In this document: positions 1 through 15,313 of the stretch, piece after piece | Layout: each line of letters starts with the position of its first letter | Position numbering within the stretch: the first letter of the stretch is position 1 | Virus record (IMG/VR): IMGVR_UViG_3300023215_001336 | Coordinates: 1-20,680 of that record | Length of the DNA: 20,680 bases | Reading direction: 5' to 3' (one strand) | Origin: a virus | Translations under genes and position numbers: made by a program | The notes under the pieces: model-generated | What the model was told of the DNA's origin: nothing | Database searches by the model: none | Seen by the model: the letters and a program-made list of their open reading frames with translations, nothing else

Positions 1-2340
1 GACAGCTATCTCTATTCTCGGCACGCCAAAGAACGTAACGTCCAGATACGCAAGATCACGGAAGGCAAAGAGGACAAGGGTTCTGGCTGGACGGATGAGA
101 AGGCCGACGAAGTTATGGCTGGGTTCAGCGCGGAGAAGATCACCGCTCTTGAGAGCATCGCTGGCGACGTTGACATGATTATCCAGCGGTCGTTGCAGCG
201 CCGGATCGATGCCGGTCTATTAAGTCAGAAGGCCGCGAAGCAATGGCTCTCGACATATAAAAGCTACGTTCCTCTGCGCGGCTTCGCAGACGAAACTCTA
301 GGCGCTGACCACGTTGAGTCTAGCCGAATGAACACCGGCAGGGGATTCAGCATCAAGGGTGCCGAGTCACTGCGTGCGCTAGGTCGAGAATCAGAAGCCG
401 GTCCTATCCTCGCGAACGTGCTTATGAACGCCGACGAGGCAATCATTCGTGCCGAGAAGAACATAGTCATGCAGTCGTTCTTCAAAATGGCGCAGGCAAA
501 TCCAAACGATTCGTTCTGGGAGATCAGCAAGACGGAATACACCAAGGGCGTCAACAAGAGTACGGGGCTTGTCGAAGCGAAAGTCGATGCACGCTACACG
601 CTCCGCGACAACGTAATGTCGGTCAAGGTTGACGGCGAGCAGTACTACATCACGGTCCACCATGAGGGCGTCGCGCGCGGCATGAAGAACATGGGCGCAG
701 AGGATACCGGCAGGCTGACCCGCGCGCTCCAGACGGTGAACCGATATCTCGCGTTCGTGAATACAAGCGCCAACCCTGAGTTCATGTTCGGCAACTTCTT
801 CCGCGATGTCACTACCGCTGCTATCAACCTCTCGGAAGAAGAAACTGAGCATCTGCGAGTCAGCGTCATGCGTGATCTCAAGGCTGCTCTCAAGGGCGCG
901 TTCGGCGGCATCAAGGGCAAGCGCGACACCGAATGGCAGAGGCACTTCCATGAGTATGCCAAGGCCGGCGGCAAGACCGACTTCTTCGGCCTTGAGGATG
1001 CGCCGCATAAGATGAAGCGGCTTGAGAATATGATGGCGCAACTCGATCCGTCAAAACCGCTCAAGGTTAAGCGCGCTTTGAGAGCGGTGTTCGACATGAT
1101 CCAAGACCTCAACGGTGCCGTCGAGAACGCCGTCAGGCTGTCAACCTATGTGAACGCGCGCCGAACTGGTACGAGCGAGCAGAAAGCTGCGTACCTTGCT
1201 AAGAATCTGACGGTCAACTTCAATAGAAAAGGCGAGTGGTCGGCGGCTGCCGGCGCGCTCTATCTGTTCTATAACGCCAGTGTGCAGGGCAGCGTGCGGG
1301 TCATCCAGGCGCTCAAGAGCAAGAAAGTTCAGAAGGTCGTCGGGGGAGTGATCGCGACATCGTTCTTACTGGAGTTCGTCAATTCGGCGCTGTCACCAGA
1401 GGGCGACGATGGCGAGGATGAGTACGGCAAGATCACCGAGTATAATCTGGCTCATAATCTCATCATAATGAATCCGTGGGCAGACAAGGACAGCGACACG
1501 CCGTATGTAAAGATTCCTATGCCATATGGCTACAATGTATTTGCGGTTATCGGACGCAAGATGGCGGAAGTCGTTACCAACAAGACCGGAGTGATGGAAG
1601 CGTCGGGCGATATTGTCGCCGCCGTTGCTGGATCGTTCAACCCGATTGGCGCGGGTCACGATTTCCTGTCCACCATCACGCCGACATTCCTTCAACCGGC
1701 TGTCGAGCTTGCCACGAACTTGAACTACATGGGCAGCCCGATCATGCCGGAACAAAACCAATTTGGTCCTGAGAAGCCCGAAAGCCAGTTGGCGTTCAAG
1801 CGAGTCAGCAGCGTCAGCAAGTGGATTGCCGAAACGCTCAACGAGCTTACTGGTGAAATCCCCGGCGGCGGCGAAGTGTTCTCTGGAAAAATAGACTTCT
1901 CGCCGGAAATACTCGACCACGTTGCGGCGTTTATCACAGGCGGCGCCGGATCGTTCGCGTCGCGAGCGGTGGACGCGCCGCTCAAGCTAGCGAGCGGCGA
2001 AGCTGAGTGGAACGATGTCCCTATTGTACGGCGCTTCCTGGGCGGTCCAAACAATTATTACGACCAGACCAGATACCGCGAACTAAGCGTCATCATGGAG
2101 CAAGTCATGTTGGCACGGCGCACGTTTAAGGGCAGCGCACGCGCAGCATTGATGAGCGATATGGCAGTCGAAATATCCGTGCTTGGTAAGTTCGCGGCTA
2201 CTCGCGCGCGGCTTCGCAAGCTATATAAAATCAAGAAGCGGGCGTCGGGTGATCGGGTTAAAGCGATCGATAAAGCGATCAATGAAGCGGTCAGAAGATT
2301 CAACGGCGCCTACGCGGAGGCTGTAAAAAAGCAACAATAA
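1..2340 (+). CDS. Large polyvalent virion-associated phage protein, C-terminal part (LPD38-like), 5' end outside window
   Basis: The frame is open from base 1, so the gene begins upstream; the first ATG at 115 is internal. The visible 779 residues are the end of a very large phage protein of the type packaged in virions of podovirus-like phages and annotated as large polyvalent proteins. The stretch KSYVPLRGF (262-288) and the block from NFNRKGEW through YNASVQGSVRVIQAL (about 1216-1320) resemble the large polyvalent protein associated domain 38 as I know it. A hydrophobic segment (VVGGVIATSFLLEFV, about 1336-1380) could insert in a membrane during genome ejection. The C-terminus is highly basic and helical (RARLRKLYKIKKR). 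No enzymatic motif is visible in this part. The role as an internal or ejected virion protein is inferred from family and from position just before lysis genes; the N-terminal domains cannot be judged. Confidence 0.75.
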   Translation, partial: DSYLYSRHAKERNVQIRKITEGKEDKGSGWTDEKADEVMAGFSAEKITALESIAGDVDMIIQRSLQRRIDAGLLSQKAAKQWLSTYKSYVPLRGFADETLGADHVESSRMNTGRGFSIKGAESLRALGRESEAGPILANVLMNADEAIIRAEKNIVMQSFFKMAQANPNDSFWEISKTEYTKGVNKSTGLVEAKVDARYTLRDNVMSVKVDGEQYYITVHHEGVARGMKNMGAEDTGRLTRALQTVNRYLAFVNTSANPEFMFGNFFRDVTTAAINLSEEETEHLRVSVMRDLKAALKGAFGGIKGKRDTEWQRHFHEYAKAGGKTDFFGLEDAPHKMKRLENMMAQLDPSKPLKVKRALRAVFDMIQDLNGAVENAVRLSTYVNARRTGTSEQKAAYLAKNLTVNFNRKGEWSAAAGALYLFYNASVQGSVRVIQALKSKKVQKVVGGVIATSFLLEFVNSALSPEGDDGEDEYGKITEYNLAHNLIIMNPWADKDSDTPYVKIPMPYGYNVFAVIGRKMAEVVTNKTGVMEASGDIVAAVAGSFNPIGAGHDFLSTITPTFLQPAVELATNLNYMGSPIMPEQNQFGPEKPESQLAFKRVSSVSKWIAETLNELTGEIPGGGEVFSGKIDFSPEILDHVAAFITGGAGSFASRAVDAPLKLASGEAEWNDVPIVRRFLGGPNNYYDQTRYRELSVIMEQVMLARRTFKGSARAALMSDMAVEISVLGKFAATRARLRKLYKIKKRASGDRVKAIDKAINEAVRRFNGAYAEAVKKQQ

Positions 2341-2438: not shown

Positions 2439-2795
2439 ATGAATATCAAGGCAATTTTTCTATCTGTTGTTTTGTTGTTTTCTCTCCCGATCGGTGCCAA
2501 GGCAGCGCCGGGAGACATAGCGGAGGCCAATTGGGGATGCTTCACGGAAGGTTCGATTCTCGACATTGTTCACGCTGGCAAGTGGTCTGTGGAGATGGCT
2601 AGGAGCGCGCTTCGTGCCTTTCTGCAATCAGGGGAATGTATCATTATCCCACATATGGAGTTGGAACTCGGCAAGCTCGTCAAGGCAGCCAACACGACTG
2701 ACGGAATTATTGAAGTGTGGGAAGTATTCGGTCGAACTAACAGCCTCTTTATTGCCGTTAAAAAGATCGAAAGATTTGAAGAACTTTCTGTCTGA
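2439..2795 (+). CDS. Small secreted protein of unknown function
   Basis: This 118-residue protein has a clear N-terminal export signal: a short Lys-bearing n-region, a hydrophobic core (IFLSVVLLFSLPI) and a likely signal peptidase I site after AKA at residue 22. The mature part is about 96 residues with two cysteines (C34, C67) that could form a disulfide in the periplasm. The ATG is preceded by a strong Shine-Dalgarno sequence (AAGAAGGGG, 7-nt spacer), and the gap upstream could hold its own promoter. I do not recognise the family. Between a virion gene and the lysis region it could be an independently transcribed 'moron' gene expressed in the lysogen, or an envelope or exclusion factor; this is speculation from position and export signal only. 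Confidence 0.65.
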   Translation: MNIKAIFLSVVLLFSLPIGAKAAPGDIAEANWGCFTEGSILDIVHAGKWSVEMARSALRAFLQSGECIIIPHMELELGKLVKAANTTDGIIEVWEVFGRTNSLFIAVKKIERFEELSV

Positions 2796-2847: not shown

Positions 2848-4377
2848 TTGAACTGTCCAAAATGTTCTAGCAATAAACTATGGAAGCACGGCAAGACGCC
2901 ATCTGGAAAGCAGCGGTACACCTGTAAGGATTGCGGTCATAGGACGACGAATCCAAATCAAACTTCTGACGCCGTTGACAAGATCGACTTTCCTTCGCGC
3001 ATACCGAGGGCGAAGCGATATTTGATTACGTCGGCGCAGAACGCCACGCCGGTACACGGCGGCTTCTTCGCGGCGCTCAAGAGCTACGCAAAGGCCGTCG
3101 ATGCGGCGCTGATTGTCATCCCACTTCGCTATCGCAATCCCACAAGCCAGTGGACCGCAGAAAACGCGAGCCATGAGTGGTGGGATAAAGGGCTTGCCAA
3201 ATACCTGTACGACGGTCGGTTCAATCTGACGAAAAGCCTGACAATCCTGGCCGACATCAAGGTTCAACCCACGGCAACCTCGCCGCTCACTGGGCTGGAA
3301 AGCATAACGGGCAATCGATCGGGAATCCTTGGGCATCCTAAAATCCGGTTCGCGACCATCCCAACGCCGCAACACAAGCTGCCAAAGATCATGGTCAGCA
3401 CAGGGTCGGTGACGCAGCGAAATTACACCGACACCAAGGCCGGTAAAAAAGGCGAGTTTCATCACACTCTTGGCGCCGCGATGGTCGAGCTTAGTGAGGA
3501 CGGCGAATTTCACATCCGACAGATCATTGCAACAAGCGATGGATCGTTCATCGATCTCGACAGGATGGCGACGCCGGGTGGCGTGATTGATGCGCCGCCG
3601 GCAGAGGCTCTTGTCATGGGCGACACGCATGTGGACTTCGTTGATCCCGACGTTGTGGCCTGCACGTTCACGGACAAAGACAGCATGTGCGCCGTACTCA
3701 AGCCCAAGCGGCTCATCTGGCATGACCTGATCGACTTTTATTCGCGCAACCACCACCACAGAGGCGATCCTATCACCGCCGTCGTCAAGCACCAGAGCGG
3801 CATGGGCGACGTTAGAGGCGAGGTCGAGAGATCATGCGCCTTTGTCGATAAATACACTCCTCACGGCTGTGAGAGCGTCCTTGTGCCGTCGAATCATCCA
3901 GAGGCTATGTCGCGGTGGATCAAGGAAACTGATTGGCGTAGCGATCCTGAGAATGCTGAATTTTATCTGGAGACGGCCCTAGCGATGGTTCTATCAGCGC
4001 GTATGACGGATCATGGCTCCAAATCAATTGATCCATTTTCGTATTGGGCAAAAAAGCTCATCAAGTGCGACGCAATAATTCTCAAGCGTGACGCCAGCTA
4101 TAGCGTCAAGGGCATCGAGTGCGGGATGCACGGCGACAGGGGCGCCAACGGAGCGAGGGGCAATATCAAGTCGTTTGCCCGCATGGGACCGCGCTCTATC
4201 GTCGGCCATACGCATAGTCCTGGCATCATCGAGGGCTGCTACCAAGTCGGCACATCAACGCGGCTGCGCCTCGATTACAACTCCGGTCCCTCAAGCTGGC
4301 TGCAAACGCATTGCGTCGTTTACGCGAACGGCAAGCGCAGCCTCATCAACATCGTAAACGGGAGATACCGAGCATGA
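2848..4377 (+). CDS. Zinc-ribbon / calcineurin-like metallophosphoesterase fusion protein
   Basis: The predicted 509-residue protein begins at a TTG; an in-frame TGA at 2815-2817 and the lack of an ATG leave few alternatives, and no good Shine-Dalgarno is seen. Residues 1-30 form an InsA/IS1-like zinc ribbon (C3, C6, C26, C29, with GKQRYTCKDCG). From about residue 255 the order of motifs fits the calcineurin-like phosphoesterase fold: GDTH (258-261), WHD (291-293), SNHPE (348-352, the usual GNHE position) and GHTH (453-456), i.e. two-metal binding residues in the expected order. Residues 50-250 are unassigned. A nuclease or phosphodiesterase acting on nucleic acid brought by the zinc ribbon is the most reasonable reading. 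Phage T5 A1-type proteins with a metallophosphatase fold are a possible functional parallel, which I cannot verify. It overlaps the next gene by ATGA. Confidence 0.7.
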   Translation: MNCPKCSSNKLWKHGKTPSGKQRYTCKDCGHRTTNPNQTSDAVDKIDFPSRIPRAKRYLITSAQNATPVHGGFFAALKSYAKAVDAALIVIPLRYRNPTSQWTAENASHEWWDKGLAKYLYDGRFNLTKSLTILADIKVQPTATSPLTGLESITGNRSGILGHPKIRFATIPTPQHKLPKIMVSTGSVTQRNYTDTKAGKKGEFHHTLGAAMVELSEDGEFHIRQIIATSDGSFIDLDRMATPGGVIDAPPAEALVMGDTHVDFVDPDVVACTFTDKDSMCAVLKPKRLIWHDLIDFYSRNHHHRGDPITAVVKHQSGMGDVRGEVERSCAFVDKYTPHGCESVLVPSNHPEAMSRWIKETDWRSDPENAEFYLETALAMVLSARMTDHGSKSIDPFSYWAKKLIKCDAIILKRDASYSVKGIECGMHGDRGANGARGNIKSFARMGPRSIVGHTHSPGIIEGCYQVGTSTRLRLDYNSGPSSWLQTHCVVYANGKRSLINIVNGRYRA

Positions 4378-4901
4378 TTATGGCAATCATCGGTCTGCTG
4401 GCGCCGTTCTTGCCGGATGTCCTCGGCATGTTCAGAGCCAGCCAGGACCACAAGCAAGAGCTTGAGATGCTGGAGCTTCGTCATCGCATGGCGAAGGACG
4501 AGTTCGGCTGGCGCATCGAGGAAGTCAACGTCAAGGCCGACATCGCGGAAATGCGCGCGATCCGCAAGCCTCATGCTTCATATGGCATCCAGCTTCTCGA
4601 CAAGGCGCAGCAGTCGGATGGCGTGATTTGGAAGTGGGCGATCAACTGCGTATTCCTGATGTTTGCGGTTCTTGATTGGGCTATCAGTTCCGTGCGCCCT
4701 GGTGTGACGTATTGGATATTCGGCCTCTATGCCGCCATTAAGACGGCGACGATCTGGCGCCTATTCGAGATTACCGAATCAATGACCGACGCCATCCTTA
4801 ATGACCGAGTGTGGACGACGTTCGATCAGGAACTTCTGATGCTGGTCGTATCGTTCTGGTTTGGTCAGCGACTCCGAGCGCGGGCGATCAAGGGTGGATG
4901 A
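4374..4901 (+). CDS. Holin-like three-helix membrane protein
   Basis: The 175-residue protein starts at the ATG of an ATGA overlap with the upstream stop codon and has GGGAG about nine bases before it; an in-frame upstream start at 4311 would overlap far more and is not needed. A hydrophobic N-terminus (IIGLLAPFLPDVLGMF) is followed by a charged helical, possibly coiled-coil stretch (about 22-80), then hydrophobic segments at about 84-104, 108-126 (after the SVRPGVTYW motif) and 152-165, with a basic C-terminus (RLRARAIKGG). The RPxxTYW motif and the layout match the phage '3TM holin' type often found beside endolysins. The neighbouring GH24 lysozyme supports a role in forming membrane lesions that release or activate it. 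No Rz/Rz1 spanin pair is visible nearby. Confidence 0.65.
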   Translation: MIMAIIGLLAPFLPDVLGMFRASQDHKQELEMLELRHRMAKDEFGWRIEEVNVKADIAEMRAIRKPHASYGIQLLDKAQQSDGVIWKWAINCVFLMFAVLDWAISSVRPGVTYWIFGLYAAIKTATIWRLFEITESMTDAILNDRVWTTFDQELLMLVVSFWFGQRLRARAIKGG

Positions 4902-5343
4902 GGTTCTCGACATCGCTAGTGAATTAGCGAGAGACTTTGAGGGCTTGAGCCTCGACCCTTACTACGACCCTGTAGGCTATCCAACGATCGGATACGGACA
5001 TCTGTTGTGTAAAAAATCGTGGGATATTTTGTCGCAATGGAAAAGTGTATCAAAAAACGATGCCATAATTTTACTCCAAGACGATATGCAAATTGCATAT
5101 AACTCCGTTCAGCGCCTCATCACAGTCGATCTCAACGACAACCAGCAGGCCGCTTTAGTTGATTTCGCGTTCAATTGTGGTGGCGGCAACCTCCAGGCAT
5201 CGACTCTTCGCCGCGTAATAAATCGCGGCGCGCTGCATGAGGCGCCGCGTCAGTTCAAGCGGTGGGTCTACGCTAATGGCATCAGCCTACGCGGCCTTGT
5301 TCGTCGCCGCGCCGCCGAAGCGGAACTGTTTGTATCTGGATAG
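4894..5343 (+). CDS. Endolysin, GH24 (T4/P22-type) lysozyme
   Basis: This enzyme hydrolyses the MurNAc-GlcNAc bond of peptidoglycan. The GH24 catalytic triad is complete with exact spacing: E16-8-D25-5-T31 in the region EGLSLDPYYDPVGYPTIGYG, followed by H at the expected place. DNQQAALVDFAFNCGGGNL and LRGLVRRRAAEAELF are the typical downstream lysozyme landmarks. I chose the GTG at 4894 (149 aa), which overlaps the stop of the holin gene and puts the catalytic Glu at the normal distance from the N-terminus; a TTG at 4861 would give 160 aa with an unnatural N-terminus. There is no signal peptide or SAR segment, so the enzyme should be cytoplasmic and holin-dependent. Confidence 0.93.
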   Translation: MDEVLDIASELARDFEGLSLDPYYDPVGYPTIGYGHLLCKKSWDILSQWKSVSKNDAIILLQDDMQIAYNSVQRLITVDLNDNQQAALVDFAFNCGGGNLQASTLRRVINRGALHEAPRQFKRWVYANGISLRGLVRRRAAEAELFVSG

Positions 5344-5548: not shown

Positions 5549-6517
5549 CTACAATTCCAGCGCGGACGCTGCTCCCGCTAGATGCTCTGGACTGTACTTG
5601 GCATAGACCCGCTCAGTTATGCGGCTGTCTGAATGACCTAAGAACTGCGCGATCTCGGACATCATAGAGCCGCCTTCCGCCATCCAGCACGCCGCGCTGT
5701 GGCGCAGAACGTATGGTGTAACTCCCTTGAGACCGGCGCGCTGTGCGGCGTTCCTAATACCCGTTCGCACGGTCATCAAACGATTCCCTCCATACTCTAT
5801 AACATACGGAGACAGGGCCGCTTCCTTGGCTTCTATCAGAGCATCCCTGACGGAATTTGTCATCGGTACGGTGGCGCGTCCTTTTCTGAATTGTCCATCA
5901 CCTCCGTTCGCGAGCCTGATCCTGTTCGCCTCAAAGTCAACCCTGCTCCAGGTCAGGTCAAGGATTGCAGCCGGTCGAGCGGCTGTCGAGATTGCCAGGA
6001 TAAGCCATAGTTTCATGTGCGGCGCCTTCGCGCCATCGAGCAGCCTCATAAACTCTGGCTTCGTCAAATGACGCTCTTTCGGCGGTGTGCCTGGAAGCAT
6101 CTCAATACGCGCTAAATGGCGATTGTCGTGCCAGTTCAAAGCGGCCTTGAGCATCCTGAGTTCTTTGTTGATTGTGTTGTTACCAACGCCGGTAGAGTGG
6201 CGGTGGTCGTGGTATTCTCGCGACTTCGCAACATTCACTTGATCCGGCCTCAAGCTGGCGAACGTGCTTTTTAAGACGCGCCAGCATTCGCACAAGCGCC
6301 TGTGATCTGTGACCCTATTGAGTTTTTCTGCTAGATACGCCTCGATGATCTCGCCGCAGGTATCCCTTGGGCCTCGCTCACGTTCGATCGCGTCAGCTAG
6401 GGCTTGTTCTGCAAGCGCACGATCCGCAGTCCCGAAGGACCGCCGAATCGGCTTTCCGTTTTCGCGCCAGTAGGCACACCACTTCCCTCGGTACAACCTG
6501 AGTTCTGGCTGTTGCAT
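5549..6517 (-). CDS. int: Tyrosine-type site-specific integrase
   Basis: A 322-residue tyrosine recombinase that would join phage and host attachment sites. The N-terminal arm-binding-like segment (RLYRGKWCAYWRENGKPIRRSFGT) and a SAM-like core-binding domain (about 50-135) are followed by the catalytic domain. Visible active-site residues are R181 (TAARPAAILDL), a probable hairpin Lys K212 (RKGRATVPM), R272 in YVLRHSA, H295 (LGHSD) and the nucleophile Y305 (ERVYAKYSP). The first position of the HxxR box is Tyr (Y269) instead of His, a substitution tolerated in some members of the family. The gene's 5' end overlaps the excisionase-like gene by 121 bp, and its 3' end faces the lysozyme across the inverted-repeat region, the normal layout for int/attP. 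Confidence 0.93.
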   Translation of the reverse strand: MQQPELRLYRGKWCAYWRENGKPIRRSFGTADRALAEQALADAIERERGPRDTCGEIIEAYLAEKLNRVTDHRRLCECWRVLKSTFASLRPDQVNVAKSREYHDHRHSTGVGNNTINKELRMLKAALNWHDNRHLARIEMLPGTPPKERHLTKPEFMRLLDGAKAPHMKLWLILAISTAARPAAILDLTWSRVDFEANRIRLANGGDGQFRKGRATVPMTNSVRDALIEAKEAALSPYVIEYGGNRLMTVRTGIRNAAQRAGLKGVTPYVLRHSAACWMAEGGSMMSEIAQFLGHSDSRITERVYAKYSPEHLAGAASALEL

Positions 6518-14624: not shown

Positions 14625-14662
14625 GGGGTAGCGTATGAAGTTTCGGTCATTGGAGAGCGATG

Positions 14663-15313
14663 ATGCTAAATTTTGATTCAAGGTGGTTTCGCGACAAGCT
14701 GATAGACAGCCGGAAATCTCAGCGTCAGATGGCAGACGCCCTTGGCATCGACAAAGCCACCGCCCACAACATTGTCAATGGAAAGCGCCCCATCAAGCTA
14801 GAGGAAGTCGGCGCTATTGCTGCCTTTTTCCACGTTACTGCCAACGAGGTTTTAACGCACGCTGGCGTCAGTGGGATAAAGCGAGGCGCGTGTCTCGAAA
14901 ATGAAGATAAGCGGATCGCCGAAGTTGATGTGCGCGGTCTCGATCTATCCAACGACGACATCATCAACGCTGATGAATCTGGTTGGAGCAGTTCAGCGCC
15001 TTATTTCGCTGTCTGCGTGGAATATGACCCCAGCACCGCTCGCGTGATCGTCATCCAGGGCGACTCGATGGAGCCGACCTTGAGGAGCGGTGATCGCGTT
15101 TTGATCGATTCGACTGACGTTGTGCCTTCGCCTCCCGGCGTTTTTTCTGTCTGGGATGGCGTCGGAATTTCGATCAAGCGGCTGTCGGTGTCGTTGAGGG
15201 ATCGGATGATTGTCGAGGTTAATTGCGACAATCCGCTGCTGCCAAATCACACGATCGAGCTTGCGGAATTGCGGATTCTGGGTCGCGTTGTTTGGGCAGC
15301 GCGCAAGATGTAA
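14663..15313 (+). CDS. Phage repressor: HTH plus S24/LexA-like domain
   Basis: A 216-residue CI-like regulator. ATG 14663 is preferred over 14660 because GGAG (14652-14655) then has a seven-base spacer. Residues 8-65 form a lambda-repressor-type HTH (SQRQMADALGIDKATAHNIVNG). The C-terminal domain carries the S24 Ser-Lys dyad: S135 in GDSMEP and K172 in ISIKRL, with RSGDRVLID between them. No Ala-Gly or Cys-Gly cleavage pair is visible at the expected distance before S135 (the only AG, at 67-68, lies at the edge of the HTH), so induction may not rely on standard self-cleavage. It is transcribed opposite to both flanking operons and presumably represses the promoter at 14552-14580. Confidence 0.9.
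   Translation: MLNFDSRWFRDKLIDSRKSQRQMADALGIDKATAHNIVNGKRPIKLEEVGAIAAFFHVTANEVLTHAGVSGIKRGACLENEDKRIAEVDVRGLDLSNDDIINADESGWSSSAPYFAVCVEYDPSTARVIVIQGDSMEPTLRSGDRVLIDSTDVVPSPPGVFSVWDGVGISIKRLSVSLRDRMIVEVNCDNPLLPNHTIELAELRILGRVVWAARKM

Follow-up and report, generated by a model that had tools for sequence, protein, structure and literature searches.

The window analysed here, meaning the whole stretch of DNA under study, comprised 20,680 nt of one strand (IMGVR_UViG_3300023215_001336, positions 1 to 20,680). The following genes were located at and around the gene of interest:

1..2340, + strand: 3' end of the gene for a large polyvalent protein, LPD38 (PF18857, E 4.2e-40)
2439..2795, + strand: 118-aa protein with a signal-peptide-like start (judged by eye), between the polyvalent protein and A1
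2848..4377, + strand: A1-family gene, 509 aa, TTG start (matches to PHROG 1745 and T5 A1)
4374..4901, + strand: PHROG 6637 protein (E 2.4e-24, no function annotated), putative holin/membrane protein
4861..5343, + strand: phage lysozyme (endolysin; Pfam PF00959, E 1.6e-38), overlapping the PHROG 6637 gene
5549..6517, - strand: tyrosine integrase (PF00589, E 3.9e-17)

The window phage is probably a temperate tailed phage. A repressor-like gene with HTH_3 and Peptidase_S24 matches lies at 14660-15313 on the + strand, and replication-type genes (AAA_24, Toprim/DUF3987, helicase) are found on the - strand. Large polyvalent proteins of this type may be injected; the LPD38 frame at 1-2340 is the same ORF as one in locus L002 (1-6171), where it was open for 2057 aa with its start not reached, and the protein resembled large proteins of Vibrio, Ruegeria and Stx phage records. 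The 118-aa protein matched no family in Pfam or PHROGs. The PHROG 6637 ORF is a putative holin, judged from its position and hydrophobic stretches only.

An earlier note, made from the DNA letters without database searches, had reported the ORF at 2848-4377 with its TTG start, and this was borne out, TTG being the sole ATG, GTG or TTG start 5' of the conserved core in the frame of the A1 gene. As the note had also stated, no strong Shine-Dalgarno sequence was visible, a GAG triplet lying about 9 nt 5' of the TTG. At the other end of the gene, the stop codon (4375-4377) overlaps the ATG of the following gene (4374-4376) in an ATGA arrangement, and the suggestion of coupled expression gains support on the 3' side from this overlap. 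The lysis genes said to adjoin the ORF were present, with the lysozyme gene downstream and the putative holin gene between.

The protein consists of an InsA-like zinc ribbon, a middle domain of about 200 residues and a C-terminal metallophosphoesterase, in that order. Its features were placed as follows:

2851..2940, + strand: N-terminal zinc ribbon, residues 2-31 (C3, C6, C26, C29)
3013..3591, + strand: middle domain with a predicted degenerate metallophosphoesterase-like fold, about residues 56-248 (fold predicted alone, VIA, Foldseek)
3595..4371, + strand: C-terminal metallophosphoesterase domain, residues 250-508 (VIA fold matches)
3619..3630, + strand: GDTH, residues 258-261 (D259 and H261, both identical in 123/123)
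3718..3726, + strand: WHD, residues 291-293 (D293, 123/123)
3889..3897, + strand: SNH, residues 348-350 (N349 and H350, 123/123), within SNHPE, residues 348-352
4129..4131, + strand: H428 of GMHGDRG (123/123), a ligand motif absent from the list in the earlier note
4204..4215, + strand: GHTH, residues 453-456 (H454 and H456, 123/123)

In a profile search of the window proteins, residues 49-507 matched PHROG 1745 ('DNA transfer protein') with an E value of 5.9e-160, and BLASTP against A1 of coliphage T5 gave 35% identity over 473 aligned columns (E 9e-91). Relatives of A1 were found in 1126 of 50,697 phage records, with one place covering at least 80% of the query in 1103; many of the record annotations read 'A1-like protein' or 'DNA transfer protein'. 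No A1 relative was found by a sequence search of the PDB. Because of the PHROG 1745 and T5 A1 matches, together with the spread of the family in phage records, the window protein is, as judged by sequence, a full-length relative of T5 A1; it belongs to an established phage family and is not an orphan fusion. The fusion of a zinc ribbon to a phosphoesterase described in the earlier note is real, but it is one version within a widespread family whose N-terminal piece is variable.

An A1 hit was obtained in 200 of 201 loci and a complete core in 195, and 123 proteins were left after a redundancy filter; the alignment used for modelling held 56 of 70 non-redundant proteins, L034 having failed the motif filter. 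The L082 contig, 104.5 kb long and assigned to Parvibaculum, encoded a relative with 59% identity. Relatives were also present in Patescibacteria-type bins (Lloydbacteria, Kaiserbacteria, Parcubacteria and WWE3; L084-L087, L089 and L091), a clade in which zinc-ribbon and other heads were mixed. Among the loci examined, A2 was confined to T5-like ones, and no A2 relative was detected within the window (best E, 1.7). A pre-early position together with A2, a feature of T5 and not of the whole family, was not found for the window gene, which is sited in a lysis cluster.

The whole-protein AlphaFold model, built with 56 relatives in the alignment, had a mean pLDDT of 91.5 and a pTM of 0.88. Structure prediction had been proposed in the earlier note as a check for a calcineurin-like fold, and when it was run the characteristic fold was present in residues 250-508. 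With VIA, this region aligned best with the PolD DP1 exonuclease subunit (6t8h; Z 13.2, 199 residues, 3.3 Å), while LpxH reached a Z of up to 11.9, a near tie with the nucleases, and Mre11/SbcD gave values of about 10.5 to 11.6, lower than that of PolD DP1. These matches bear out the proposed two-metal phosphoesterase. A Foldseek search of the whole model against the PDB returned nothing at an E value of 0.001 or better. The window protein itself matched no Pfam phosphoesterase model; among 56 family members, 21 matched the PHROG 221 metallo-phosphoesterase (best E, 1e-11) and 4 matched Pfam Metallophos (best E, 2.1e-4).

The ligand pattern of the metallophosphoesterase superfamily is DxH, D, NH, H and HxH, and the full set is present in the C-terminal domain. 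The GDTH, WHD, SNHPE and GHTH motifs recognized earlier were real, with their positions confirmed, and the eight presumed ligands (D259, H261, D293, N349, H350, H428, H454 and H456) were invariant in all 123 non-redundant homologues, which excludes a chance origin of the motifs. This ligand set would bind metal, and the fold match over the motif-bearing region, together with the conservation, suggests that the eight residues meet in one binuclear site.

The residues between the zinc ribbon and the phosphoesterase, about 200 in number, had been called unassigned. The region is real, but it can now be given a probable assignment: it folded confidently alone and was most like a degenerate metallophosphoesterase. 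When residues 47-252 were predicted alone from 52 sequences, the model had a pLDDT of 90.9 and a pTM of 0.89. The top VIA-align match was Vps29 (Z 9.5, 146 residues, 3.6 Å), followed by YfcE (8.1), LpxH and Mre11, and all 50 of the 50 entries listed were metallophosphoesterase-fold proteins. Foldseek against the PDB also placed Vps29 first (E 8.2e-4), with the DNA polymerase delta B-subunit and LpxH chains lower; TM-scores were low (0.25-0.39). In BFVD, Foldseek returned phage phosphoesterase models from an E value of 2.6e-6, ranked below three probable A1 relatives (so judged by identity). The predicted fold match is of moderate strength, and the middle domain is probably a degenerate metallophosphoesterase-like domain. 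The canonical ligand set (DxH, D, NH, H, HxH) was absent from the conserved columns of residues 57-248. Four other residues of the domain, Y95, P146, G199 and H206, were strictly conserved (123/123).

An internal duplication, with one half of the protein copied from the other, was considered and dropped, since by hhalign and profile shuffles the similarity was no better than chance. Alignment of the middle and C-terminal domains with hhalign, in both directions and in local and global modes, gave E values of 0.22 or worse, and the profile alignment score of 12.7 was reached by 54 of 200 column shuffles. Motif pairings made by eye between the two halves were also discarded. Duplication is not claimed because the halves lack sequence similarity.

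At the N terminus, residues 2-29 matched Pfam Zn_ribbon_InsA with an E value of 6.7e-9 and 35.8 bits, above the cut-off of 26.1. The four cysteines (C3, C6, C26 and C29) were taken straight from the sequence, and the InsA-like zinc ribbon proposed earlier is therefore significant and has its four Cys ligands. It probably binds DNA. The zinc ribbon was retained among the nearest relatives, and farther relatives carried another type of N terminus, mostly helix-turn-helix where it could be identified. Thus, 6 of 10 scanned non-zinc N termini matched Pfam helix-turn-helix or sigma-70 region 4 models at E values up to 0.05 (five of them below 0.001); those of L008, L199 and L060 gave no match, and that of T5 matched a DUF only. 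The label 'other' used below does not equate to a proven helix-turn-helix.

Under rule-based labelling, 61 heads counted as zinc and 60 as other, with 15 changes between them. Four proteins (L018, L034, L039 and L157) were relabelled to zinc by hand, and seven heads (L172, L181, L183, L184, L185, L196 and L200) were left unscored. After relabelling there were 65 zinc and 51 other heads, with at least 10 changes between them on a FastTree phylogeny of 123 cores, at least eight of which were forced by well-supported branches. Similarly, a quick IQ-TREE phylogeny of 123 core sequences required at least nine changes between zinc and other, at least seven of them forced. Sister pairs with unlike heads included L053/L066 (support, 98) and L008/L017 (support, 99). 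By these core-sequence trees, the N-terminal piece is exchangeable, having switched between zinc ribbon and other types at least 9 to 10 times.

The surroundings of A1 varied among the relatives. The downstream neighbour started at or within the A1 stop codon in 19 of 105 cases. In L006, genes for an endolysin, A1, an unidentified ORF and an amidase-type endolysin overlap in a row and are followed by an integrase gene; in L004, a holin gene lies close downstream of A1 and is followed by an integrase gene. The gene next to A1 in L003 belongs to PHROG 3108, for which no function is annotated, and in L082 the neighbours encode an HslV-family peptidase, a nucleoside deoxyribosyltransferase and a tail sheath. 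Across 121 loci, 189 neighbours were found, and among the 99 scanned, chiefly from zinc-ribbon loci, there were five HslV-family peptidases, three head maturation proteases and two endolysins. In many relatives A1 lies among replication genes, as in Stappia phage SI01, where it is beside helicase and ligase genes. Given this mixed tally, linkage to lysis genes was rejected as a family-wide rule; it is true for the window, L004 and L006.

The closest clade to the window A1 is integrase-carrying. An integrase was present in 6 of 40 records of one set (the window, L003, L004, L006, L066 and L071) and in 1 of 26 of a second, the two sets comprising 65 of 80 loci plus the window, the first including non-zinc loci as well, and most records being fragments. 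Loci L002, L005, L007, L008, L022, L027, L033, L036, L039, L041, L046, L052, L063, L065 and L070 were left out of this count. Because head types were mixed and records fragmentary, an integrase was not concluded to be a mark of zinc-ribbon A1 phages.

In 12 of 121 loci, A1 had a gene for an HD-type deoxynucleoside-monophosphate phosphatase no more than 1.6 kb away, and none was found farther off in the stretches examined. When the count was restricted to the 6 of these loci that had played no part in building the search model, such closeness was equalled by 40 of 20,000 random placements. The phosphatase genes directly adjoined A1 in L011, L015, L016, L028, L038 and L048. In T5, dmp, which encodes an unrelated deoxynucleoside-5'-monophosphatase, is near A1. 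The linkage is compatible with a pathway from DNA to nucleosides.

T5 A1 is described as indispensable both for degrading host DNA and for second-step transfer, and host DNA is not degraded by A1 mutants (PMC13250531; PMC3556154). It is also described as copurifying with RNA polymerase and as too toxic for expression in E. coli (PMC7472727), and it has been called a putative DNase (PMC7232257). The destruction of host DNA suggested in the earlier note is consistent with this role, which is on record for T5 alone (PMC13250531, PMC3556154, PMC7472727). PMC8541194 notes that, as of that paper, nuclease activity had not been described for T5 A1. Gp48, a different phage metallophosphoesterase, is described as degrading DNA in vitro, with loss of activity on ligand mutation (PMC12287305).

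We consider it likely that the A1-family protein is a metal-dependent nuclease that degrades host DNA, directed by its N terminus and probably acting late. A DNA nuclease was judged the best explanation on three grounds: T5 genetics, DNA-binding heads and the link to deoxynucleotide phosphatases; we infer the activity itself, its substrate, when it acts and what the head does. The C-terminal domain would be the catalytic part, using two metal ions to cleave DNA phosphodiester bonds much as Mre11/SbcD and the PolD exonuclease subunit do. As for the middle domain, it would serve as a scaffold or as a surface binding DNA or a partner, and the zinc ribbon would be a swappable DNA-binding part that brings the nuclease to its substrate. 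The protein would be made late in lytic growth, with the host chromosome broken down before or at lysis; late timing is probable because the A1 stop codon overlaps the start of the putative holin gene and the lysozyme gene comes next. Against this reading stand the pre-early expression of T5 A1 and its action with A2, of which the window has no relative, as well as the statement on T5 A1 in PMC8541194, the failure of the window protein to match a Pfam phosphoesterase model, the siting of A1 among replication genes in many relatives and the mixed neighbour tally.

If the catalytic domain instead hydrolysed a small nucleotide (a cyclic dinucleotide or another defence signal, for example), A1 would be a counter-defence phosphodiesterase. 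The metallophosphoesterase fold has many substrates, the LpxH score nearly equals those of the nucleases, and T5 A1 orthologues of jumbo phages are presented as calcineurin-like phosphodiesterases predicted to act on signalling nucleotides (PMC7824862). This reading is nevertheless unlikely, given the undegraded host DNA of T5 A1 mutants (PMC13250531, PMC3556154), the zinc ribbons or helix-turn-helix motifs on most of the examined N termini, which suggest a DNA substrate, and the association of A1 with deoxynucleotide phosphatases. Quite improbable is a chiefly transcriptional role, in which A1 would bind host RNA polymerase and shut off genes, the loss of host DNA being indirect: the copurification of T5 A1 with the polymerase (PMC7472727) favours it, as does the argument that A1 without A2 is limited to binding RNA polymerase (PMC8541194), but a pure binding protein would have no need of the full catalytic ligand set that is invariant in 123/123. 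Very improbable is a role in DNA entry, whether in second-step transfer or in ejection, for although second-step transfer needs T5 A1 (PMC7472727) and the gene lies directly downstream of the large polyvalent protein, it is T5-like phages that are known to use two-step transfer, and the window has no A2. Action at ejection, as put forward in the earlier note, has no direct support, virion evidence included.

Returning to a nuclease acting on host DNA, a wider version of it is put forward tentatively, as rather doubtful: A1 proteins may be modular, targeted genome-destroying nucleases, in which a fixed core, made up of a degenerate and an active metallophosphoesterase, with swapped DNA-binding heads (zinc ribbons or helix-turn-helix domains) would distinguish the DNA of a host or competitor from that of the phage. 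In the window phage, the zinc-ribbon version would stay silent in the lysogen until its release along with the lysis genes. We know of no account that settles how T5-like phages destroy host DNA yet spare their own. The T5 enzyme is described as hard to study because it is too toxic to clone (PMC7472727). The family-wide view makes the question of sparing testable, with a head that varies, a core that is fixed and catalytic residues that are named. The presence of A1 with lysis genes in an integrase-carrying phage raises a further question, namely, how a phage that needs a healthy host keeps the enzyme off. A1 has been described before as a calcineurin-like phosphodiesterase (PMC7824862). Three points may be new: a second fold that is degenerate, DNA-binding heads that were exchanged repeatedly, and an A1 gene coupled to lysis genes in a phage with an integrase; the middle-domain fold, module swapping and an A1 gene in a lysis operon were not found in the literature searched.

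Among known systems, mycobacteriophage Gp48 resembles A1 in being a phage metallophosphoesterase that damages host DNA, and it differs in that no zinc ribbon or second domain is evident from its description (PMC12287305). With InsA of IS1, the zinc ribbon alone is held in common, the rest of the IS1 transposase being absent from A1. A chimeric nuclease of phage ICP1 reportedly targets satellites, the attached DNA-binding part being said to set the target of the nuclease; the idea of a head-directed phage nuclease is the same, but the nuclease itself is different. Mre11/SbcD and PolD DP1 share the metallophosphoesterase fold across the entire C-terminal domain (Z 10.5-13.2), whereas identity is 11-16% and A1 has an extra middle domain and N-terminal module; we know of no Rad50/SbcC or polymerase partner for A1. 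The T5 A1 protein can be aligned over both the middle and C-terminal domains and retains all eight ligand positions, but it has an N terminus of its own of about 96 residues without a zinc ribbon. It is also encoded by a pre-early gene, near A2 and dmp, in a phage whose life cycle is strictly lytic, whereas the window gene belongs to the lysis cluster of an integrase-carrying phage.
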